Of a DNA stretch of 64,000 bases, positions 10,394-20,866 are shown piece by piece. Positions within the stretch are counted from its first letter, which is position 1. Each line of letters starts with the position of its first letter. The notes below the pieces were generated by a model, which was not told the DNA's origin, made no database searches, and worked only from the letters and a program-made list of their open reading frames with translations. The stretch is from Paracoccaceae bacterium (lineage in GTDB: Bacteria; Pseudomonadota; Alphaproteobacteria; Rhodobacterales; Rhodobacteraceae). The translations under genes and the position numbers were made by a program. The stretch covers positions 1 to 64,000 of the forward strand of contig JAGXGW010000023.1 in the NCBI GenBank assembly GCA_024636555.1, given 5' to 3'.

Positions 10394-11080
10394 ATGAAAA
10401 CGGATGATGTCGCGGCCGAGTGCCACACGGTTATGGTGCCGAATTCGCCCTACTTGAACGAGAACCGGATCGCACGGATCAATGCGGGGCGCTACGAGGG
10501 CGAGGAAATCCGCGGCGCACTGCATGTCACCGGCCCTGACGACAGGGTCCTTGAAATGGGTGCAGGACTTGGGGTTGTGGGGGCTATCTGCGCCAAGAAC
10601 CAGAAGCCGCAAAAGGTTGTTTCCTTCGAGGCAAATCCTGCGTTGTTGCCGCACATCAACGCGCTTTACGAGATGAACGCGCTGCAAGACCGGATCACGG
10701 TGAGAAACGCTGTTGTGCTGTCCGAGCCGGATTGCCCCGAGACTGTCGCGTTTCATGTGCAGAACTCCTACCTCGGCTCCTCGCTTTTGTTGAAAGCCGA
10801 CCGCAAGACCACCCAGATCGACGTGCCGACGGCGGCGTTCGAGGACATCCGGCAGGAACTCTCTCCGACGGTGCTGCTCTGTGATATAGAGGGTGGCGAA
10901 CTGGCGTTTCTGGAACATGCCGATCTGTCCGGTATCAGGGCCGTCGTGATGGAATTCCATCCCGAAGCTTACGGCATTGCGGGGATGCGGAAATGTAAAG
11001 ATATTCTCAGGTCGGCTGGTTTCGTGAAAGAGGATGACCTCTCGTCGCGCACTGTCTGGACTTGCACCAGAGCCGTGTAG
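10394..11080 (+). CDS. FkbM-family methyltransferase (first copy)
   Basis: A 228-aa SAM-dependent methyltransferase: VLEMGAGLGVVGAICAKN is the SAM-binding loop, SFEANPALLPHI the acidic ribose-binding strand, and CDIEGGELAFL the FkbM signature. FkbM enzymes O-methylate sugars or polyketides and often sit in polysaccharide gene sets. It lies three bases before a GT61 glycosyltransferase gene, so the two are almost certainly one operon, and the product may methylate the glycan built by that enzyme. A second FkbM gene lies 2 kb downstream. Confidence 0.82.
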   Translation: MKTDDVAAECHTVMVPNSPYLNENRIARINAGRYEGEEIRGALHVTGPDDRVLEMGAGLGVVGAICAKNQKPQKVVSFEANPALLPHINALYEMNALQDRITVRNAVVLSEPDCPETVAFHVQNSYLGSSLLLKADRKTTQIDVPTAAFEDIRQELSPTVLLCDIEGGELAFLEHADLSGIRAVVMEFHPEAYGIAGMRKCKDILRSAGFVKEDDLSSRTVWTCTRAV

Positions 11081-11083
11081 AAC

Positions 11084-12202
11084 ATGGATGTTCAGCTTGA
11101 CCGCGTGATCCCGGATCAACCGCCCATGCCAGACGCCGGGTGGTCGCAGGCGGTCGAGATCCTTCCCGGTGCCGTTGTGGTTCCGGCGAAGTCCAGCGCG
11201 TTCCAGCAGCCTGCCGGCGTCCTGCGGTCAGACGGCAGCTATTGCGGAACAGATGCTTTGTGGCGCAATCACCGGCCCCTGACCGTTGCACCGGAACGGC
11301 CTGACACTGTCTCTCACACGCTCGCGGGTCGTTGGATCTGGGGCGGCGTGCTCTGGGCGCATTTCGGGCATTTTCTGGTGGAAAGCACCGGACGGCTCTG
11401 GGGGATTGCTGCGGCGCAAGGCAAGATCGACGGGATCGCCTTTATACTGAAAAGACCGGGTCGCGCGGGCGAATTACACGGATTCCAGCAGGCTTTTTTT
11501 GATCTTTGCGGGATTACCGTTCCGGTGAAGATCATTGATGCGCCAACAGCGTTCGAGGAACTGGTCGTGCCCGGTCAGGGGTTCGGACTTGGGCAGATCA
11601 TCCAAGGCACGCCGCAGTTTCGTGGCTATATCACGCAGAGTTTCGGCAAGGATGTCCCGCCGGAGGGGAGCGAAAAGCTCTATATCTCAAGGTCCTTGCT
11701 CGGCCTGAACAAAGGCGGGCTGATCGGCGAGGACGAGGTTGAGATGCGTCTGGCCCAAGAGGGCTACGAGATCTTCCACCCCCAGAAGCATGACATGCGG
11801 ACGCAAATCGCCCGCTACAAAGCCGCCACCCATATCGTTGCGGCGGAAGGCTCGGCGCTGCATATGTTCGGGATGGTCGGGCAGCCCGATCAGAAAGTCG
11901 CCATGCTGATGCGGCGGCAATCGGCGGCATCCGACCAGATCGTCGCGCATCTGCAAAGTTTTTGCGGGATAGAGATCGCGCAGATCAAGCAGCTTCGCGC
12001 CATCTACAAAATGAAAGGCGGCGCCAAGAAGCGCCATGATCTGGGCGTCCTGTCCTTGCCGGATGTGCAGAAGGAACTGGCGGCGCTGGGCTTCATCCGT
12101 GACGGTGGTGCCGCGTGGGAGGAAAAGGGCTGGCCAGACGTAAAAGCCATCGTGAAGGGCAAGTACGAGAAGCGCCGGGTCGGTACAACCGATACGCCAT
12201 AA
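11084..12202 (+). CDS. Glycosyltransferase family 61 (DUF563) protein
   Basis: A 372-aa protein with the marks of GT61: HFLVESTGRLWG in the first half, then LYISRSLLG and a long C-terminal stretch ending in AAEGSALHMFGMV, the conserved GSALHN-like nucleotide-sugar site. GT61 enzymes in bacteria are found in capsule, LPS and exopolysaccharide sets and use retaining or inverting transfer of a pentose or hexose; the donor cannot be read here. Coupled to the FkbM gene by a three-base gap and convergent with the sulfotransferase gene. Confidence 0.8.
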   Translation: MDVQLDRVIPDQPPMPDAGWSQAVEILPGAVVVPAKSSAFQQPAGVLRSDGSYCGTDALWRNHRPLTVAPERPDTVSHTLAGRWIWGGVLWAHFGHFLVESTGRLWGIAAAQGKIDGIAFILKRPGRAGELHGFQQAFFDLCGITVPVKIIDAPTAFEELVVPGQGFGLGQIIQGTPQFRGYITQSFGKDVPPEGSEKLYISRSLLGLNKGGLIGEDEVEMRLAQEGYEIFHPQKHDMRTQIARYKAATHIVAAEGSALHMFGMVGQPDQKVAMLMRRQSAASDQIVAHLQSFCGIEIAQIKQLRAIYKMKGGAKKRHDLGVLSLPDVQKELAALGFIRDGGAAWEEKGWPDVKAIVKGKYEKRRVGTTDTP

Positions 12203-12226
12203 GCGCGCGGCACCCCGTGTACTCTG

Positions 12227-12859
12227 TTACTCGGGTCTTTTCGTGTTCTCATTGGCAACACCCCACCAAGGCAGATCAAAGCCCAAGAACCCACCCACTT
12301 TTTGCGGCGCTTGCGGATCGGTGATGTCGTATTCCAGAAAATCATCCGCACCGGCAAAGACCTGACGGCAAAAGGCGTAATGCCCCTCGATCCATCTGAT
12401 ACGTTCCTCGGGGGTGGTACCAAAGCCCTGCGGCATACCGGGAACCGGACTGGCGGGCAGGCGCAGCCGTCCCAGGTCCGACCAGCGTTCCATGCTGTCG
12501 GACAGCGCTTGCGGCTCGCGGTAGGTCAGGATGAAACGCGCGCCGGGATAATGCCGACGGATCGCATGCAACAGCCCCCAATCTGTTTGTGGCCAAAGGC
12601 AGAACCCCTTGCGGACGATGCTGATCTCTGTGAACGCGTCGAACTCCGGCATCAGCGCCAGCGGATCACCATGGGCAAAATAGCCGTCATACATCAGCTT
12701 GCCGACAAAAGTGCGGATGATCTCGCGGTTCTCGGTCTGTCCGCTGCGGATGCGCCAGTCAGCTACGTTGAAACCGGCCTGTTTGAGGGCTTCGCCCAGC
12801 GTTGTCGTGCCCGATTTGGGAAGTCCGAGATTGATGATCTTGCGGGTCGCTTCGGGCAT
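12227..12859 (-). CDS. Sulfotransferase-family protein
   Basis: A 210-aa protein beginning PEATRKIINLGLPKSGTTTL; LPKSGTT is the PAPS 5'-phosphosulfate loop and RFILTYREPQALSDSMERW the 3'-phosphate site with its Arg and Ser. It should sulfate a hydroxyl of a sugar or small molecule in the cytoplasm. The ATG at 12859 is preferred over 12901 because GGA precedes it and homology starts right after it. It runs against the FkbM-GT61 pair with 24 bp between the stops and lies between two FkbM genes, which suggests modification of a surface glycan. Confidence 0.78.
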   Translation of the reverse strand: MPEATRKIINLGLPKSGTTTLGEALKQAGFNVADWRIRSGQTENREIIRTFVGKLMYDGYFAHGDPLALMPEFDAFTEISIVRKGFCLWPQTDWGLLHAIRRHYPGARFILTYREPQALSDSMERWSDLGRLRLPASPVPGMPQGFGTTPEERIRWIEGHYAFCRQVFAGADDFLEYDITDPQAPQKVGGFLGFDLPWWGVANENTKRPE

Positions 12860-13086
12860 CACGGTTTCCAATCGCAAACATGCGCCCCTGAACCAAAACA
12901 TGCGGGCCGCTCGCGGAAGTTATGGGGAGAGCGCTGTCATGACAAGGTAGCAAACTATCATGGACGCCTTTAGACATCAGACATTATGCGCGCGCGCCAC
13001 ATGGCTCCGGGCGGGATTTTTGCACTGACGTCACTGGATTGCTGCGCGCCCCTTGGCTATACAAACGAAGTCTTTAAGAGGTCGGT

Positions 13087-13815
13087 ATGCTAACAGATGA
13101 TATCTCCCGGAGCGGTCACGCGACGATCGACTGCCAGACGGTCATCACATCGCGCGGGGTCAAGCTGCCTGACGATCATAGGTATCTGTCCGACAGGCAC
13201 CGCAAACTCCTGCAAAAAGACAACTATGAGAGCAAGGAAGCCGAAGCCGCGCTGAAAGCGGTGAAATCCAGCGACATTGTCATGGAACTGGGCGGTGGGC
13301 TGGGGTTCATGTCGTCGTTGATCATGATGAACCGCAAGCCGGAAGCCTATCATCTGTTCGAGGCCAATCCGGCGCTCATACCCTATATCCGCGCTGTGCA
13401 CCGGTTCAACGGGCTTGAGGGGATAGACGTGCGCAATGCGATGCTTGATACCGAGGCAGCAGAGGCTGCGAACTTTTACGTGCGCAATGATTTTCTGGCC
13501 TCTTCCATGGCGGACGATCTCGGCGATGCAAATGGCGGTGTCATCCGCGTGGAGCAGGTTCCTGTTCTGGCGATCAACGCCGTCATGCGAGAGATCAAGC
13601 CGAGCTTTCTGGTCTGCGATATTGAAGGGGCGGAAGCGCGCATTCTTCCCAAGGCTGATTTGTCATCACTTCGCGCTGTTCTGATCGAACTTCACCCCCA
13701 AACCACGGGCCAGAGCGGTATTCAGGCGGTGTTTGATGTGATGCACGCCCATGGCCTGACATATTTTCCCCGCGCCTCCGAGGGCAAAGTGGTTCTGTTC
13801 AAGAAGGACTGGTGA
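13087..13815 (+). CDS. FkbM-family methyltransferase (second copy)
   Basis: A 242-aa methyltransferase with VMELGGGLGFMSSLI as the SAM loop, LFEANPALIPYIRAVH, and CDIEGAEARIL as the FkbM signature. It is clearly a paralogue of the protein at 10394, sharing the EANPALxPxI and CDIEGxE blocks, but starts with a different N-terminus. AAGAGG precedes the ATG. It is divergent from the sulfotransferase gene with 227 bp between starts, which holds the promoters of both. It probably O-methylates a sugar of the same polymer. Confidence 0.8.
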   Translation: MLTDDISRSGHATIDCQTVITSRGVKLPDDHRYLSDRHRKLLQKDNYESKEAEAALKAVKSSDIVMELGGGLGFMSSLIMMNRKPEAYHLFEANPALIPYIRAVHRFNGLEGIDVRNAMLDTEAAEAANFYVRNDFLASSMADDLGDANGGVIRVEQVPVLAINAVMREIKPSFLVCDIEGAEARILPKADLSSLRAVLIELHPQTTGQSGIQAVFDVMHAHGLTYFPRASEGKVVLFKKDW

Positions 13816-13971: not shown

Positions 13972-15042
13972 ATGCTGATCTCCGCTCATGACCTGACCGC
14001 GCTGGCCACCGCAATTATTGCCCATGCGGGTGGCGCGCCGGATGCGGCCGCCAGAATTGCGACACGGCTCGTCGGTGCGAATCTGACAGGCCATGACAGC
14101 CACGGCGTCGGCATGATCCCGGCCTATGTAGAGGGGATAAAGGCAGGCGAGTTGCATCCCGATGCCGCGGCAAAGGTGGTGCGCGACAACGGGCCGTTCC
14201 TGTTGGTGGACGGGCAGCAAGGCTTTGGACACATCATTGCCGAACAGGCGATGGAGATGGCGATTGCGCGTGCCCGCAGCAGTCAGTTTGCCGTTCTTTC
14301 ACTCCGCAACAGTTTCCATCTGGGACGGCTGGGCGACTGGGGTGCCATGGCGGCAGAGGCCGGGTTCATCTGCATCATCTACGCCAATGTGCAGACACCC
14401 AAACCGCTTGTGGCACCTTTCGGTGGCAGCGACGGGCGGTTTGTCACCAACCCCTATTGCACGGCGATCCCCGCGACCGACAAGACCCCGATGTTCCTGC
14501 TGGACATGGCGACCAGCACGATTGCCAAGGGCAAGGCCCGCGTCGCCTATCTCAGCGGCAAACAGGTGCCCGAAGGCGCGCTGATCGACGCGCAGGGCAG
14601 GGCGACGACGGACCCCGCGGTTATGTTCGACGATCCACTGGGCGCGCTGACAACCTTCGGGTTGCACAAGGGGTTCGGACTGGCCTTGCTGGGCGATATC
14701 CTTGGCGGTTCCTTCAGCGGGGGCGGGGCCTATCTGCCGGAACGTCAGGTGCCCTCGCGCATCCTGAACCACATGATGGCGATCCTGATCGACCCTGACG
14801 CCTTCGGGACCGCCGATGATTTCGCCACCGATATGGACCGGTATGCCGCATGGGTCAAAGCCTCTCCGCCTGCGCCGGGCGTGGAAGCCGTGCAGTTTCC
14901 CGGCGATCCCGAGCGCCGCAGCGCGCAGATGCGGCAGGCCGAAGGCATCCCGATTGATCCGGGCACATGGGGCCAGTTGCTGGAAACCGCCAGATCGGTC
15001 GGTGTGCCGGAGCAGGAGTTGGCGCGCTACGCCGCAGCCTGA
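13972..15042 (+). CDS. Ldh/malate-family NAD(P)-dependent dehydrogenase
   Basis: A 356-aa protein of the type 2 malate/L-lactate (YbiC, ComC, AllD) dehydrogenase family, which does not use the Rossmann fold. Typical features are the N-terminal DSHGVGMIP motif with the catalytic His, FGHIIAEQAM, SFHLGRLGDWGAMAAEAG, and DMATSTIAKGK in the middle. These enzymes oxidise 2-hydroxy acids such as malate, sulfolactate or ureidoglycolate. The full length matches the family. It stands alone between the glycan block and the phosphorylase gene; its substrate is not shown by context. Confidence 0.85.
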   Translation: MLISAHDLTALATAIIAHAGGAPDAAARIATRLVGANLTGHDSHGVGMIPAYVEGIKAGELHPDAAAKVVRDNGPFLLVDGQQGFGHIIAEQAMEMAIARARSSQFAVLSLRNSFHLGRLGDWGAMAAEAGFICIIYANVQTPKPLVAPFGGSDGRFVTNPYCTAIPATDKTPMFLLDMATSTIAKGKARVAYLSGKQVPEGALIDAQGRATTDPAVMFDDPLGALTTFGLHKGFGLALLGDILGGSFSGGGAYLPERQVPSRILNHMMAILIDPDAFGTADDFATDMDRYAAWVKASPPAPGVEAVQFPGDPERRSAQMRQAEGIPIDPGTWGQLLETARSVGVPEQELARYAAA

Positions 15043-15185
15043 CGGCGTGGTCTGAACGCCGCCACCTTGGCGTGATGTGCGGAGCGCGCATTTTCCGTGC
15101 AATCTGCGCGCGGGCGAGCGGGGCTGCATGCCTTGCGGGTACCAAGTGATTTGTCAGTGACGCTGTGTTCTGCTTGAGTAGGTGC

Positions 15186-16940
15186 ATGACCCGCCCCCGC
15201 CCCAAAAAACCCGATACATACAGTTTTGATCGCGCCCTGGCGGCGATGATCGCCCGCATCTATCCCGCCGCCGATACCAATGATCTGGCCCGGCAATGTA
15301 TACAGGCCTTCTGGCCGGACGGGCAGCACCGCCGCAAGCGGGGCCGCGCACGCGACAACAGGCTGTGGTCGCAGGGGGATGTCCTGCTGATCACCTATGG
15401 CAATTCGCTGTTGGACGGCGCGCATAAACCGCTCGACCTGCTGAATGATTTCCTGCGCCGATACTTGCGTGACATGGTGAACGGCGTACATGTCCTGCCG
15501 TTCTTTCCCTTCACATCGGATGACGGATTTGCCGTTACCGATTTCCGTGCGGTCAATTCGCAACTGGGTGACTGGTCCGATATCAACCGGATCGCGGGCG
15601 AGTTTCAGCTGATGTCCGATCTGGTGCTCAACCATGTGTCCAGTCAGGGCGCATGGTTCAATGCCTACAGTCAAGGCAAGCCGCCCTACGACAGGTTCTT
15701 TTTTGAGGCCTCGCCCGAGGACGATCTGGCGATGGTCGTGCGGCCGCGCACCACACCGCTGTTGCAGGAGGTCGAGACAAGCAACGGGCCGCGCCATGTC
15801 TGGTGCACCTTCAGCCATGACCAGATCGATCTGGATTTCCGCAACCCCGAGGTGCTGCTGGAATTCCTGCGGATCATCCGCCTGCATATGGACAACGGGG
15901 TGCGGATCATCCGGCTGGATGCGGTGGCGTTCCTGTGGAAAGAGGCGGGTTCGCCCTCCATCCACCTGCCGCAGACCCATGCGATCGTCAAGCTGATCCG
16001 CCTGCTGTGCGACTATGCGGTGGAGCCTGTCATTCTCGTGACGGAAACCAATGTCCCCAAGGCTGAAAACCTGAGCTATTTCGGCAGGGGGGACGAGGCG
16101 CATGTGATCTATAATTTCCCGCTGCCGCCGCTCATTCTGCATGCGATGATGTCCGGCTCGGCCAGCCATCTGGTGGAATGGCAGCGCCGGATGCCGCCCG
16201 CGCCGCTGGGCTGCGCCTATCTGAATTTCACCGCCAGCCATGACGGCATCGGCATGCGCCCGGCCGAAGGGTTGCTGTCGGCGCAGGATCAGGCGGCGGT
16301 CATTACCACGGTGCGCCGGATCGGCGGGCTGGTGTCAATGCGCGGCCTGCCCTGCGGCGGCGAGGCGCCCTACGAGTTGAACACCACCTTCTTCGATGCG
16401 ACCAGCCAGACCTTCGAGGGGCCTGACGACCATCATCTGGCGCGGTTCTTTTGCTCGCAGACCATCGTGATGTCACTGGAAGGTATCCCCGCGTTCTACA
16501 TCCATTCGCTGCTGGCGACGCCGAATGACCATGACGGCGTGGAAAAGCGCGGCATGAACCGCGCGATCAACCGGCATCGCTGGGACTACACGGCCCTGCG
16601 CGCACGGCTTGAGCGGCCCGAGACGGATCAGGCGCAAGTGATGGAAGGGCTGCGCGCGCGCCTGCGTATCCGTCGCAAACAGCCCGCCTTCCACCCGAAC
16701 GCGACGCAGTTCACGATCCACACTGCCGATGACCGTATCTTCGGGATCTGGCGGCAGAGCCTTGACCGTCAGCAATCCATTTTCGCGCTGCATAATGTCA
16801 GCGCCGAAACGGTGATCCTTCCGTTGATCCGTCTCAACCTGATCGACGATGAGGACTGGACCGACCTGTTGTCAGGCGAGCGGATCGGGGATGAGGATAT
16901 CATCCTTGCCCCTTATCAATGCCGCTGGATCAGCAACTAG
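15186..16940 (+). CDS. GH13_18 sugar phosphorylase, probably glucosylglycerate phosphorylase
   Basis: A 584-aa alpha-amylase-fold enzyme. It shows VLPFFPFTSDDGFAV, LVLNHVSSQGAWF, the nucleophile strand IIRLDAVAFLWKE, the acid/base strand VILVTETNV and NFTASHDGIG, the pattern of subfamily GH13_18 (sucrose, sucrose-6-phosphate, glucosylglycerate and glucosylglycerol phosphorylases). Facing it across 346 bp are a GpgS-like synthase and its phosphatase, so glucosylglycerate is the likeliest substrate, cleaved by phosphate into glucose-1-phosphate and glycerate. The ATG at 15186 is preferred over the GTG at 15165. Confidence 0.85.
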   Translation: MTRPRPKKPDTYSFDRALAAMIARIYPAADTNDLARQCIQAFWPDGQHRRKRGRARDNRLWSQGDVLLITYGNSLLDGAHKPLDLLNDFLRRYLRDMVNGVHVLPFFPFTSDDGFAVTDFRAVNSQLGDWSDINRIAGEFQLMSDLVLNHVSSQGAWFNAYSQGKPPYDRFFFEASPEDDLAMVVRPRTTPLLQEVETSNGPRHVWCTFSHDQIDLDFRNPEVLLEFLRIIRLHMDNGVRIIRLDAVAFLWKEAGSPSIHLPQTHAIVKLIRLLCDYAVEPVILVTETNVPKAENLSYFGRGDEAHVIYNFPLPPLILHAMMSGSASHLVEWQRRMPPAPLGCAYLNFTASHDGIGMRPAEGLLSAQDQAAVITTVRRIGGLVSMRGLPCGGEAPYELNTTFFDATSQTFEGPDDHHLARFFCSQTIVMSLEGIPAFYIHSLLATPNDHDGVEKRGMNRAINRHRWDYTALRARLERPETDQAQVMEGLRARLRIRRKQPAFHPNATQFTIHTADDRIFGIWRQSLDRQQSIFALHNVSAETVILPLIRLNLIDDEDWTDLLSGERIGDEDIILAPYQCRWISN

Positions 16941-17286
16941 CGGAGCTACCTGAGGAACGTTTCCCGCACCCCGGGCGATGAGCCGCGCCTGTCAGCTAGG
17001 CGGGCAATTTTCGACGTTCAAGTCTGTTTCTGCGCGGGATATGTCCGCGCGCGGAACAAGGCGCGCAGCGCCGCCGCGCATCGCCGGGCCGCCCCCCGGC
17101 ACGGCGATTTGGCAGATGCAGGTGCAGGTCTAGAGGTCGGGCGGATTTGGCAGGCATAAATTGCCATACCGGAAGGTGGCATCGCCGCACCGTGGCCCGA
17201 CGCTGCGCGGCTCGTTGACAGTCCGCTCAGGGCTCCGGGCAAACATGGGGAATCTTGTGTCAAGTGGCACACGCTAGAGGAACGCT
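16941..17286. other. Convergent intergenic region with no gene seen
   Basis: It separates the ends of the phosphorylase and synthase genes. It is very GC-rich with several short inverted repeats (for example CGCCT...AGGCG near 16988-17002) but no hairpin followed by a clear T-tract, and no ORF with a recognisable product. Confidence 0.45.
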
Positions 17287-18507
17287 TTACTGATATTCCT
17301 CCGCATCGCCTGCCACAGCAGAGTGCAGATCGCGCAGAAAGTCCGGATCGGCGGAATGGACGCGGTTCCAGGTCGGGATGAACGGGGTTTCGTGCGGGTT
17401 GTCCAGAAATGTCTGACCCGCGCGCATGATGTTCTCGGCGAACAGCTCGATCGAGGCTTCCTCGGCATGGCGGTCCAGTTGCAGCCCGTTCATCCTGGCA
17501 TCGGAGTGATAGGCCTCCAGCAGGTCCAGCGCGCTGCGGTAGTAGGTCGCTTTCAGCGTACGAAAGACATTGGTGGTAAACACTGTCCCGTCGGCGGCCA
17601 GCTTGCGGAAAATCGCCTTGCAGATATCCGTGGACATGCGGTTGAGGCCGGTCGTCGCATCCTCGGTGCTCAGGGACTGGTGCTTGTGGTCATAGGCATC
17701 GGCGATCTCCACCTGACAGACGGCAGAGGGCGCCAGATTGCGCCATGCTTCCGACAACACCCCGATCTCCAGCCCCCAGTCCGAGGGAATACGCAGATCG
17801 GGCAGGATATTGGTCCGCATCGCAAATTCACCCGACAGCGGATAGCGGAAGGCGCGCAGGTAATCGAGGTAATCACGGTCCCCCACGACACGCTTGAGCG
17901 CGATCAGCAGCGGGCTGACCAGTAACCGTGTGACCCGCCCGTTGAGCTTGTCCTGCCCGATCCGTGCATAATAGCCCTTGGCCAGTTGGAACGGAAAGGT
18001 CGGATTGGCCACCGGATAGATCAGCCGTGCCAGCATCTCGTTGGTATAGGTCAGGATATCGCAATCGTGGATCGCCATCACGGCGCTGTCCTGACAGCCG
18101 ATCAGATAGCCCATCGCGGTCCAGACATTCTTGCCTTTGCCTTGCTCGACGGGGCCAAGGCCCATGTTCTCCAGCCGCTTTTCAAGGTCGCGCATGCGGG
18201 GACTGTCGTTCCAGATCACCCCATGGTTCTGGCCAAGATCGGCGAAAAAGCTGCGTGCATGGCGGAACTGTTCCTCGGTTGCCTGATCCAGCCCGATGAT
18301 GATCCGGTGCAGATAGGTGACGCGGGACAGCTCGGCCAGAATGTTTGGCATCGCCTCGGTTTCAAGCTCGGAATAGAGGCAGGGCAGGATGAGCGCCATT
18401 TTCCGCGTCTGGCCAAAGGTCTCCAACTCGTAGGTGAGATCTTCGAGGGCGCGGGTCCGCAGATTGTGCAGCGTGGCGATGTGGCCGTTCTGATGAAAAT
18501 CAACCAT
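17287..18507 (-). CDS. gpgS: Glucosyl-3-phosphoglycerate synthase-like glycosyltransferase (GT81)
   Basis: From the ATG at 18507 the product is 406 aa; the track's longer frame to 18726 runs into the upstream HAD gene and is out of family. The GT-A fold shows KMALILPCLYSELE, QGKGKNVWTAMGYL, the metal-binding HDCD of AIHDCDILTYTNEM, and PLSGEFAMRTNIL, matching GpgS-type enzymes that join a glucose from NDP-glucose to 3-phosphoglycerate. The product's phosphate would be removed by the adjacent HAD enzyme, giving glucosylglycerate, an osmolyte. The ATG overlaps the HAD stop by eight bases, so translation is coupled. A mannosyl variant cannot be excluded. Confidence 0.8.
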   Translation of the reverse strand: MVDFHQNGHIATLHNLRTRALEDLTYELETFGQTRKMALILPCLYSELETEAMPNILAELSRVTYLHRIIIGLDQATEEQFRHARSFFADLGQNHGVIWNDSPRMRDLEKRLENMGLGPVEQGKGKNVWTAMGYLIGCQDSAVMAIHDCDILTYTNEMLARLIYPVANPTFPFQLAKGYYARIGQDKLNGRVTRLLVSPLLIALKRVVGDRDYLDYLRAFRYPLSGEFAMRTNILPDLRIPSDWGLEIGVLSEAWRNLAPSAVCQVEIADAYDHKHQSLSTEDATTGLNRMSTDICKAIFRKLAADGTVFTTNVFRTLKATYYRSALDLLEAYHSDARMNGLQLDRHAEEASIELFAENIMRAGQTFLDNPHETPFIPTWNRVHSADPDFLRDLHSAVAGDAEEYQ

Positions 18508-19303
18508 GAGGTTCCAGTCCTTTTTTCTGCTCAAGCCGGTCCAGCAGCGCCAGAACCGCGAAGTTCCAGCCCTGCGGGCCGGGGTCTTCAGTGCGGATGA
18601 TGCGGCCCCCCTCCTCCCCTTCGAGGGGAGGCAGGCGCGTGTGATGCGGATTGGCAATGACCACGCCGATATCGGCCGCCTCCAGCATCTCGATGTCGTT
18701 GGGGGCATCGCCAAGGGCAATGACATGACGTGGTTGATACTGCGCTGTCACCTCGGCCATCCGGTCAGCCTTTGTCTTGCCGAAAGAGAGCGTCAGGAAC
18801 CGCCCGCCCTGACGGGCGCTGATGCCCAGCCCGTCCAGCGCCGCGACAAAGGCAGCACGTGTGTCCTCGTCGCCCAGCCACAGCCCCGGCTCCGAGAAGG
18901 CGCGCGCCTTGGCGTGGGCCGCGTCATCAAGGGCAAGGCCGGTAGCTTCCACCAGCGCGGCCAAATCCATGTCGCCAAAGCCACGGAACAGCGCGCGCAG
19001 GTCTTTAGGAAGTCGGTCCAGTGCCGCGCGCAGTTTTGGATAATCCTCTGCCGGAGGCATGGCCGTGTCGTTGCTCAGCAAGCCCGCGCCGTTCTCGACG
19101 ATAGCAGGATAGGCCGTCAGCCCCATTCGTTCCTGAAACACCGCGATCTCCGCGCCCGTCTTGCTGCTGGACAAGACAACCGGCGCACCGATGGCCGCCA
19201 GCCGGTCAAGCGCGGGGCGTGCGGGCGTCCAGTCATAACTGACATGATCCAGCAAAGTCCCGTCCAGATCGGTAAAGACAACAAGCGGCGTTGATGGTGT
19301 CAT
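18500..19303 (-). CDS. HAD-family glucosyl/mannosyl-3-phosphoglycerate phosphatase
   Basis: A 267-aa HAD-IIB phosphatase: VVFTDLDGTLLDH carries both catalytic aspartates, SSSKTGAEI is motif II, and IALGDAPNDIEMLEAADIG is motif IV with its metal-binding Asp residues. The mannosyl-3-phosphoglycerate phosphatase group fits best in length and motifs. It removes the phosphate from the synthase's product. ATG 19303 (TPSTPLVVFTDL) is chosen over 19339 because family homology begins there. It overlaps the synthase gene and lies 78 bp downstream of the aldo/keto reductase gene on the same strand. Confidence 0.85.
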   Translation of the reverse strand: MTPSTPLVVFTDLDGTLLDHVSYDWTPARPALDRLAAIGAPVVLSSSKTGAEIAVFQERMGLTAYPAIVENGAGLLSNDTAMPPAEDYPKLRAALDRLPKDLRALFRGFGDMDLAALVEATGLALDDAAHAKARAFSEPGLWLGDEDTRAAFVAALDGLGISARQGGRFLTLSFGKTKADRMAEVTAQYQPRHVIALGDAPNDIEMLEAADIGVVIANPHHTRLPPLEGEEGGRIIRTEDPGPQGWNFAVLALLDRLEQKKGLEPHG

Positions 19304-19381
19304 GGCCCCAAGTGTCACGGGACCATGCCAAAGCTGCAAGGGGGAAAAGGCGCGCGGCCATGTGTTTTTCCCCGCCCGAGG

Positions 19382-20395
19382 CTAACAATACCCTTCGACG
19401 CCGATCCGTTGATCAGACGAGTATCTTTCACCATGCGCCCAGCCGACGGGCAGGACGTGATCAATCGCCCGCAGGATGTCGTCTGTCATGGCGAAGGCGC
19501 TGCCGGCCACGCAATCGGCCAGATGGTCGGCCTTGCGTGTGCCCGGAATCGGGACGAGTTGTGCGCCCTGCGCCAGACACCATGCAATCGCCAATGCGGC
19601 GGGTGTGGTGCCCAGTTCCTGCGCCAACTGCCGGAAGGCGGAAACCTTGATCAGGTTGTGGCCGAGGTTGGGCTCCTGAAACCGCGGGTTGGGAATGCGG
19701 AAATCGCCCTTGCCGAACCGTGCGGGGTCCGGCGCGGTGGAGGTGAACATCCCGCGGCCCACGGGCGAAAACGGCACGAAGGTCACGCCCAGTTCCGCGC
19801 AGGTCTGGATCAGGCCCAGTTCCGGCTGGCGGGTCCAGAGCGAGTATTCGCTTTGCACCGCATCCACCGGCCCGATGGCCGCAGCCCGCCGCAGGCTGGC
19901 AGGCGCGATTTCCGAAAACCCGATGCCCCCGATCTTGCCCTCTGCCTTGAAGGCCAGCAGCGTCTCCATCACCTCTTCGATCTCGATACGCGGATCGCGG
20001 CGGTGGATGTAGTAGAGCTCGACGTGGTCCAGCCCCAGACGGGTCAGCGACGCATCGAGCGATGAGCGCAGATAGTCCTTGGTGTTGTTGAAGCCGCGCT
20101 TGCCGGTCTCGGGGTCACGGTCGATCCCGCCCTTGGTGGCAATGGTGAAATGGCCGGGCCTGTCTTTGAGATATGTGCCGATGATCGTCTCGGATACGCC
20201 CATCCCGTAGACATCGGCGGTATCGAGAAAATCGACACCCATGTCCCGTGCGGCGGTCAGTGTCTCATGGGCCTCGGCCTCGGATGTGGGGCCGTAGGCT
20301 CCGCCAAAGCTCCAACATCCCAGCCCGACCTCGGCAACTGTTTTTCCATCCTGACGAATACGGCGCGTTTTCAACCTGAACCCCTTCCGGTGCAT
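19382..20395 (-). CDS. Aldo/keto reductase
   Basis: A 337-aa (alpha/beta)8 aldo/keto reductase. The catalytic tetrad is visible: Asp of FLDTADVYG, Tyr of the same stretch, Lys of TIATKGGIDRD, and His of LYYIHRRDPR; the cofactor site near IPGTRKADHL favours NADPH. This type (YakC/PcpD/AKR13-like) reduces diverse aldehydes and ketones. It precedes the HAD and GpgS genes in the same direction, so it may be the first gene of that operon, but a chemical link to glucosylglycerate is not shown. Confidence 0.82.
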   Translation of the reverse strand: MHRKGFRLKTRRIRQDGKTVAEVGLGCWSFGGAYGPTSEAEAHETLTAARDMGVDFLDTADVYGMGVSETIIGTYLKDRPGHFTIATKGGIDRDPETGKRGFNNTKDYLRSSLDASLTRLGLDHVELYYIHRRDPRIEIEEVMETLLAFKAEGKIGGIGFSEIAPASLRRAAAIGPVDAVQSEYSLWTRQPELGLIQTCAELGVTFVPFSPVGRGMFTSTAPDPARFGKGDFRIPNPRFQEPNLGHNLIKVSAFRQLAQELGTTPAALAIAWCLAQGAQLVPIPGTRKADHLADCVAGSAFAMTDDILRAIDHVLPVGWAHGERYSSDQRIGVEGYC

Positions 20396-20560
20396 ATTTC
20401 TTTGTCATCGGGACAGTCTATCAAAGAAAGTCGGGGGGGAAACAGAGGTTGATCGGTTTCGCCGCTTTGGGTGTAAAGGTGTGGACAGCAAGAGCGCCTT
20501 TGGGTGAGCGACGTCATTCGATGCAACCATATGAATTTTTGAACAGGGAGATTGAAGGAA

Positions 20561-20866
20561 ATGCGGAGCGAGGAAGACAAGATCTCAGGCCGATTGAGCG
20601 GTGAACAGATCGAGCCGGACCAACCGGACAATATGTTGTTGCGGCTGATCTATATGGTGCTGATCGCCGTCATGATCTCGGTCGAGCAGACGGTGCTGGG
20701 GGTGGCCACGGTTGTCCAGTTTGTCGTGATGCTGGTGAACAACAATCAACCGAACCCGCGTCTGGCCGATTTCGGAACCGACCTCGGCATCTGGATCGCC
20801 AAGGCAGCGCGCTACCAGACGGCGGCAAGCAATGTCAAACCCTGGCCTTGGACCGAGCTGGACTGA
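20561..20866 (+). CDS. DUF4389 domain membrane protein
   Basis: A 101-aa protein with one or two hydrophobic segments (LLRLIYMVLIAVMISV, TVVQFVVMLVNN) and the end PWPWTELD, the hallmark of DUF4389 (a family of small inner-membrane proteins, often in lipase-rich operons). ATG 20561, behind AAGGA, is used rather than the TTG of the track. Function is unknown. It lies alone on the plus strand, divergent from the aldo/keto reductase gene. Confidence 0.75.
   Translation: MRSEEDKISGRLSGEQIEPDQPDNMLLRLIYMVLIAVMISVEQTVLGVATVVQFVVMLVNNNQPNPRLADFGTDLGIWIAKAARYQTAASNVKPWPWTELD

Follow-up and report, generated by a model that had tools for sequence, protein, structure and literature searches.

Gene clusters that combine gpgS, ggaP and gpgP have been described in Synechococcus sp. 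PCC 7002 (A2021-A2023; PMC7178133, PMC10873239), and it was from such clusters that glucosylglycerate phosphorylase was discovered (Franceus et al. 2017, as cited in these two sources). The pathway, the gene clustering and the logic of its discovery are already published (PMC7178133, PMC10873239, PMC11009771). The in vivo role of the phosphorylase was called unproven in a 2020 review (PMC7178133), and almost no literature on glucosylglycerate in roseobacters was found. Rhodoalgimonas zhirmunskyi (Roseobacteraceae), which belongs to the same bacterial family and shares the motifs, was noted in 2023; in the available portion of that paper (PMC10608839), its GH13_18 protein with PYELN and TETN, together with a GT81 enzyme, is presented as CAZyme content. 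YcjM of E. coli, annotated as glucosylglycerate phosphorylase, has the loop motifs PYEIN and TETN and is situated in a sugar-catabolic operon.

The locus described here lies in the window, the whole stretch of 64,000 nucleotides that was analysed, which comes from a marine bacterium of roseobacter type. It has the same three enzyme families and predicted reactions as the Synechococcus sp. PCC 7002 cluster, to go by the excerpted descriptions of the latter; unlike that set as so described, its phosphorylase gene is convergent with a gpgP-gpgS operon and a dispersed repeat lies between them (Table 1). To the CAZyme set reported for R. zhirmunskyi in the text available, the window adds the layout and a phosphatase, and unlike ycjM, which has neither GpgS nor GpgP in its operon, the window phosphorylase gene accompanies both (39% identity to YcjM over 530 aa). 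We regard the three genes as a standard glucosylglycerate turnover module, with a probability of about 0.9 judged from sequence. The first-pass annotation had placed the genes at 15186-19303, with an overlap of eight bases between phosphatase and synthase on the minus strand and the phosphorylase on the plus strand converging on them; the frames sit exactly there, the overlap is exactly eight bases and the two halves are opposed. Its three enzyme identities and the assignment to glucosylglycerate are likewise backed by sequence fingerprints, synteny and co-occurrence, which support these predictions well. The find is an ordinary pathway annotation, to which a repeat insertion and a kinase-phosphatase fusion are modest additions.

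Table 1. Features of the predicted glucosylglycerate locus in the window and of a fused relative in Pseudoalteromonas
Feature	Position	Strand	Basis or remark
GH13_18 phosphorylase, predicted 2-O-glucosylglycerate phosphorylase (GGaP)	15186..16940	+	584 aa; PF00128, YcjM identity, loop motifs
GT81-type glucosyl-3-phosphoglycerate synthase (GpgS), predicted	17287..18507	-	406 aa; NF040724, PRK13915, PDB GpgS matches, motifs
HAD-IIB phosphatase, mannosyl/glucosyl-3-phosphoglycerate phosphatase family (GpgP)	18500..19303	-	267 aa; TIGR01486, PDB MPGP structures
GpgP stop / GpgS start overlap, 8 bases (ATGGTTGA)	18500..18507	-	Sequence
Dispersed MITE-like repeat between both convergent stop codons	~16937..17281 (approximate ends)	.	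36 matches in own genome
D-glycerate-3-kinase-like domain fused to GpgP	L120:4266-6008, Pseudoalteromonas donghaensis plasmid NZ_CP032091.1		Ahead of GpgS and GGaP

None of the three reading frames is disrupted, and full-length homologues exist for every one of the proteins. At least 584 relatives were returned with the synthase as query, and the best 80 loci were kept; they come from genomes and MAGs of roseobacter type (two with the label Granulosicoccaceae). The phosphatase lies upstream of the synthase in all 80 of them and 67 also have a convergent phosphorylase, so that, with the full-length homologues, chance is ruled out and the three-gene arrangement is real. Besides the three genes and reading frames that overlap them, no neighbour recurred in at least six of the 80 loci, and the module is also found on plasmids; it therefore behaves as a self-contained unit. 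The pairwise distances of the three proteins correlate across the 67 loci (r = 0.55 to 0.81, shared species history included). In a sample of 150 family genomes, where an orthologous phosphorylase was counted at 62% identity or more, 40 genomes have a near-full synthase and 38 of these also carry the phosphorylase, while none of the 150 has the orthologous phosphorylase without the synthase. As read from coordinates, the two genes are convergent neighbours on one contig in 29 of the 38; they are on one strand in two genomes (G024, G115), divergent but nearby in one (G131), about 20 kb apart in two and on different contigs in four. One further genome retains broken remnants of synthase and phosphorylase side by side as its decayed sole copy (G074:C1:87092-87663). 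A decayed second copy, with both genes broken together, was observed elsewhere (G013:C1:3905627-3908076). The window genes are flanked by an Ldh_2 gene (13972-15042) and an aldo/keto reductase gene (19382-20395), which were considered as parts of the module and rejected, their recurrence in the same place being confined to one close relative. Further away, at 10394-13815, the window encodes two FkbM-type methyltransferases, a GT61 glycosyltransferase and a sulfotransferase, probably for surface-glycan modification.

The junction of the convergent genes distinguishes the window from its relatives. Here the stop codons of GGaP and GpgS are 346 bp apart, a gap missed in the first-pass annotation. 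Among the 67 convergent pairs, 32 share bases at the 3' ends (4 or 7 in most of them), and in a further 21 the stops lie within 27 nt; in three genus mates the two genes overlap and the repeat is absent from the junction. The 346-bp spacer is itself a dispersed repeat with inverted and related ends, CTAGCG..CTACCTGA and CTAGCG..GCCACTTGA (CTAG...CCACCTGAC), and weaker copies were detected in some other family genomes. The phosphorylase ends in ISN-stop in the window and in ISN-LRY-stop or ISN-AVY-stop in relatives. On the simplest reading, a MITE-like element inserted at the gene overlap and shortened the phosphorylase by three residues, leaving both genes otherwise intact. The repeat was also considered as a structured regulatory RNA and set aside, as its folding z of about -2.4 to -2.7 is in keeping with the inverted ends and does not point to a function.

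Phosphatase and synthase may be coupled tightly in the window, as suggested at first pass; a Shine-Dalgarno-like AAGGA precedes the GpgS ATG by 10 nt, within GpgP. The overlap measures exactly 8 bp in 26 of the 80 relatives, four others have one of 4 bp, and the remainder have gaps, nearly always of 1-30 bp; the eight-base form also occurs in Leisingera and Pseudoalteromonas. The overlap fits ordinary operon coupling, and the spread of spacings is ordinary operon variation. Separate control of synthesis and phosphorolysis, also suggested at first pass, is possible since the phosphorylase gene has a 5' region of its own. Neither the convergent layout nor separate control is required, given that some lineages (Pseudoalteromonas and two genomes of the family) carry all the genes on a single strand. 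The sequences ahead of GGaP and of GpgP in the relatives showed no promoter or operator motif common to the family, no Rfam family was matched in 14800-20600, and a sigma-70 scan gave no promoter match and terminator-like matches no better than those of shuffles. A candidate promoter with a very short leader is a TTTGTCAG...TGCTTG block directly ahead of the GGaP ATG (window 15150-15185), which only two close relatives (L009, L010) share.

The layout may be thought of as a regulatory device, in which opposing transcripts overlap at their 3' ends so that synthesis and breakdown repress each other in an excludon-like manner, the repeat having relieved this repression in the present genome. The 53 of 67 convergent pairs with overlapping or closely placed stops (27 nt or less) leave scant room for two terminators, the convergent genes have opposing functions, and the adjacency of phosphorylase and synthase is kept though other neighbours vary; this conserved adjacency is informative. 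On the other side, close tail-to-tail spacing is common in these genomes, and tight spacing alone is thus not evidence of antisense control: a hand count over 100 kb of a plasmid from Qingshengfaniella gave 12 other convergent pairs, 9 of them closer than 20 nt. The one-strand lineages speak against the device as well. It is an unlikely addition to the turnover module, and slightly less likely still is the wider proposal that in roseobacters the phosphorylase gene and the operon for synthesis cross-control each other through overlapping 3' transcripts and that the mobile repeat uncoupled them in this species. If this were true, a single genus would hold a natural pair of junction states, one overlapped and one separated.

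The predicted product of the synthesis operon depends on the choice between glucose and mannose. GpgS aligned with NF040724 (GpgS_Meth) over the full model length with 347.6 bits, half of the equivalog cut-off of 700, and is a diverged relative of the members of that model; it also matched PRK13915 and the PDB structures of M. tuberculosis GpgS. The motifs DCD (DxD), GRVT, PLSGE, GLEIG and DHKHQ were all found. In the M. tuberculosis enzyme, Val-Thr binds the carboxylate of 3-phosphoglycerate, Glu232 belongs to an ion-pair network, His258 is at the metal site, and the PLSGE loop is linked to the selection of glucose over mannose and proposed to disfavour mannose (PMC2581804). GRVT, GLEIG and DHKHQ are the window counterparts of the Val-Thr, the ion-pair Glu and the metal-site His, respectively, and PLSGE is kept in all 80 of the best relatives. 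GpgP has the nucleophile motif FTDLDGT (DxD), matched the MPGP structures 1xvi and 3ztw, and scored 183.6 bits against TIGR01486 (MPGP family, cut-off 164.75), reaching no phosphatase equivalog cut-off. With this and the synthase score at half its cut-off, the assignment of the sugar rests on PLSGE and the linkage to the GH13_18 gene. No assayed enzyme from the clade of the window proteins was found in the literature. That the pair makes mannosylglycerate, or the longer glucosylglucosylglycerate, is very unlikely: the best family models of the HAD protein do bear the name mannosyl-3-phosphoglycerate phosphatase, and GT81 also holds the mannosyl-3-phosphoglycerate synthase of Rubrobacter (3f1y), but the PLSGE loop, the conserved module without a second glycosyltransferase and the strictness of subsite -1 of GH13_18 enzymes for glucosyl (PMC7178133) all point away from it. 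The predictions of a glucosyl-3-phosphoglycerate synthase and of GpgP are well supported.

Within GH13_18, GGaP is distinguished by (T/S)ETN at the acid/base loop and by a loop A Glu that takes the place of the Gln of SP, SPP and GGoP (PMC7178133). The window phosphorylase shows both fingerprints, TETN and PYELN, and the Glu of PYELN aligned opposite the Gln of the SP and GGoP structures. TETN and the loop A pattern Y-E-[L/I]-N were present in all 68 relatives examined, and the N(L/V)D(I/L/V)YQ loop A of sucrose phosphorylase is absent from the window protein. The motifs contradict a preference for sucrose and make the prediction of glucosylglycerate phosphorylase (EC 2.4.1.352) well supported. 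A sucrose, sucrose-6-phosphate or glucosylglycerol phosphorylase adjoining GpgS and GpgP by accident is highly improbable: the best NCBIfam and PDB matches of the window protein do carry the name sucrose phosphorylase, but it scores 187.7 bits against the cut-off of 334.4 of the sucrose phosphorylase model TIGR03852, has the GGaP motifs in place of those of SP, SPP and GGoP, and co-occurs almost perfectly with GpgS in family genomes. A second GH13_18 phosphorylase type, 45% identical, was observed in two family members without GpgS (G029:C9:76863-78446, G127:C12:21107-22639) and is possibly a purely catabolic form.

In the proposed turnover, GpgS would glucosylate 3-phosphoglycerate with a nucleotide-activated glucose, probably UDP-glucose, and dephosphorylation by GpgP would then yield glucosylglycerate, a compatible solute. 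Once the solute is no longer needed, GGaP would use inorganic phosphate to split it into D-glycerate and glucose-1-phosphate, and these could re-enter central metabolism through GalU-type and glycerate-kinase reactions. GpgP and GpgS would form a two-gene operon; GGaP is tail to tail with it and has a separate 5' region. We infer the enzyme identities here from sequence and the operon from the shared eight bases and the adjacency of its genes across relatives; for the physiology we follow published work. The first-pass annotation took the cycle as complete in these genes, which holds only when a glycerate kinase is counted; the own genome encodes one GpgS, one GGaP and one such kinase, of the MOFRL/DUF4147 type, on another contig (C6). 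In Qingshengfaniella, galU is located directly upstream of gpgP. The plasmid clusters of Pseudoalteromonas (e.g. NZ_CP032091.1) share the eight-base GpgP-GpgS overlap and the GGaP gene with the window; unlike the window, they have GpgP, GpgS and GGaP in that order on one strand, and their GpgP is 580 aa long, with matches to D-glycerate 3-kinase structures (6ckg, E = 1.6e-18) in its N-terminal half. This fusion is full-length in all six Pseudoalteromonas plasmid records with a synthase, and its presence in a synthase/phosphorylase cluster supports glycerate as a product to be recycled. Given the fusion, the near-perfect co-occurrence of GGaP with the synthase and the conserved layout, roseobacters are a tractable group in which to test what GGaP does in vivo. 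The own genome also encodes an ectoine synthase, and glucosylglycerate therefore need not be the main osmolyte.
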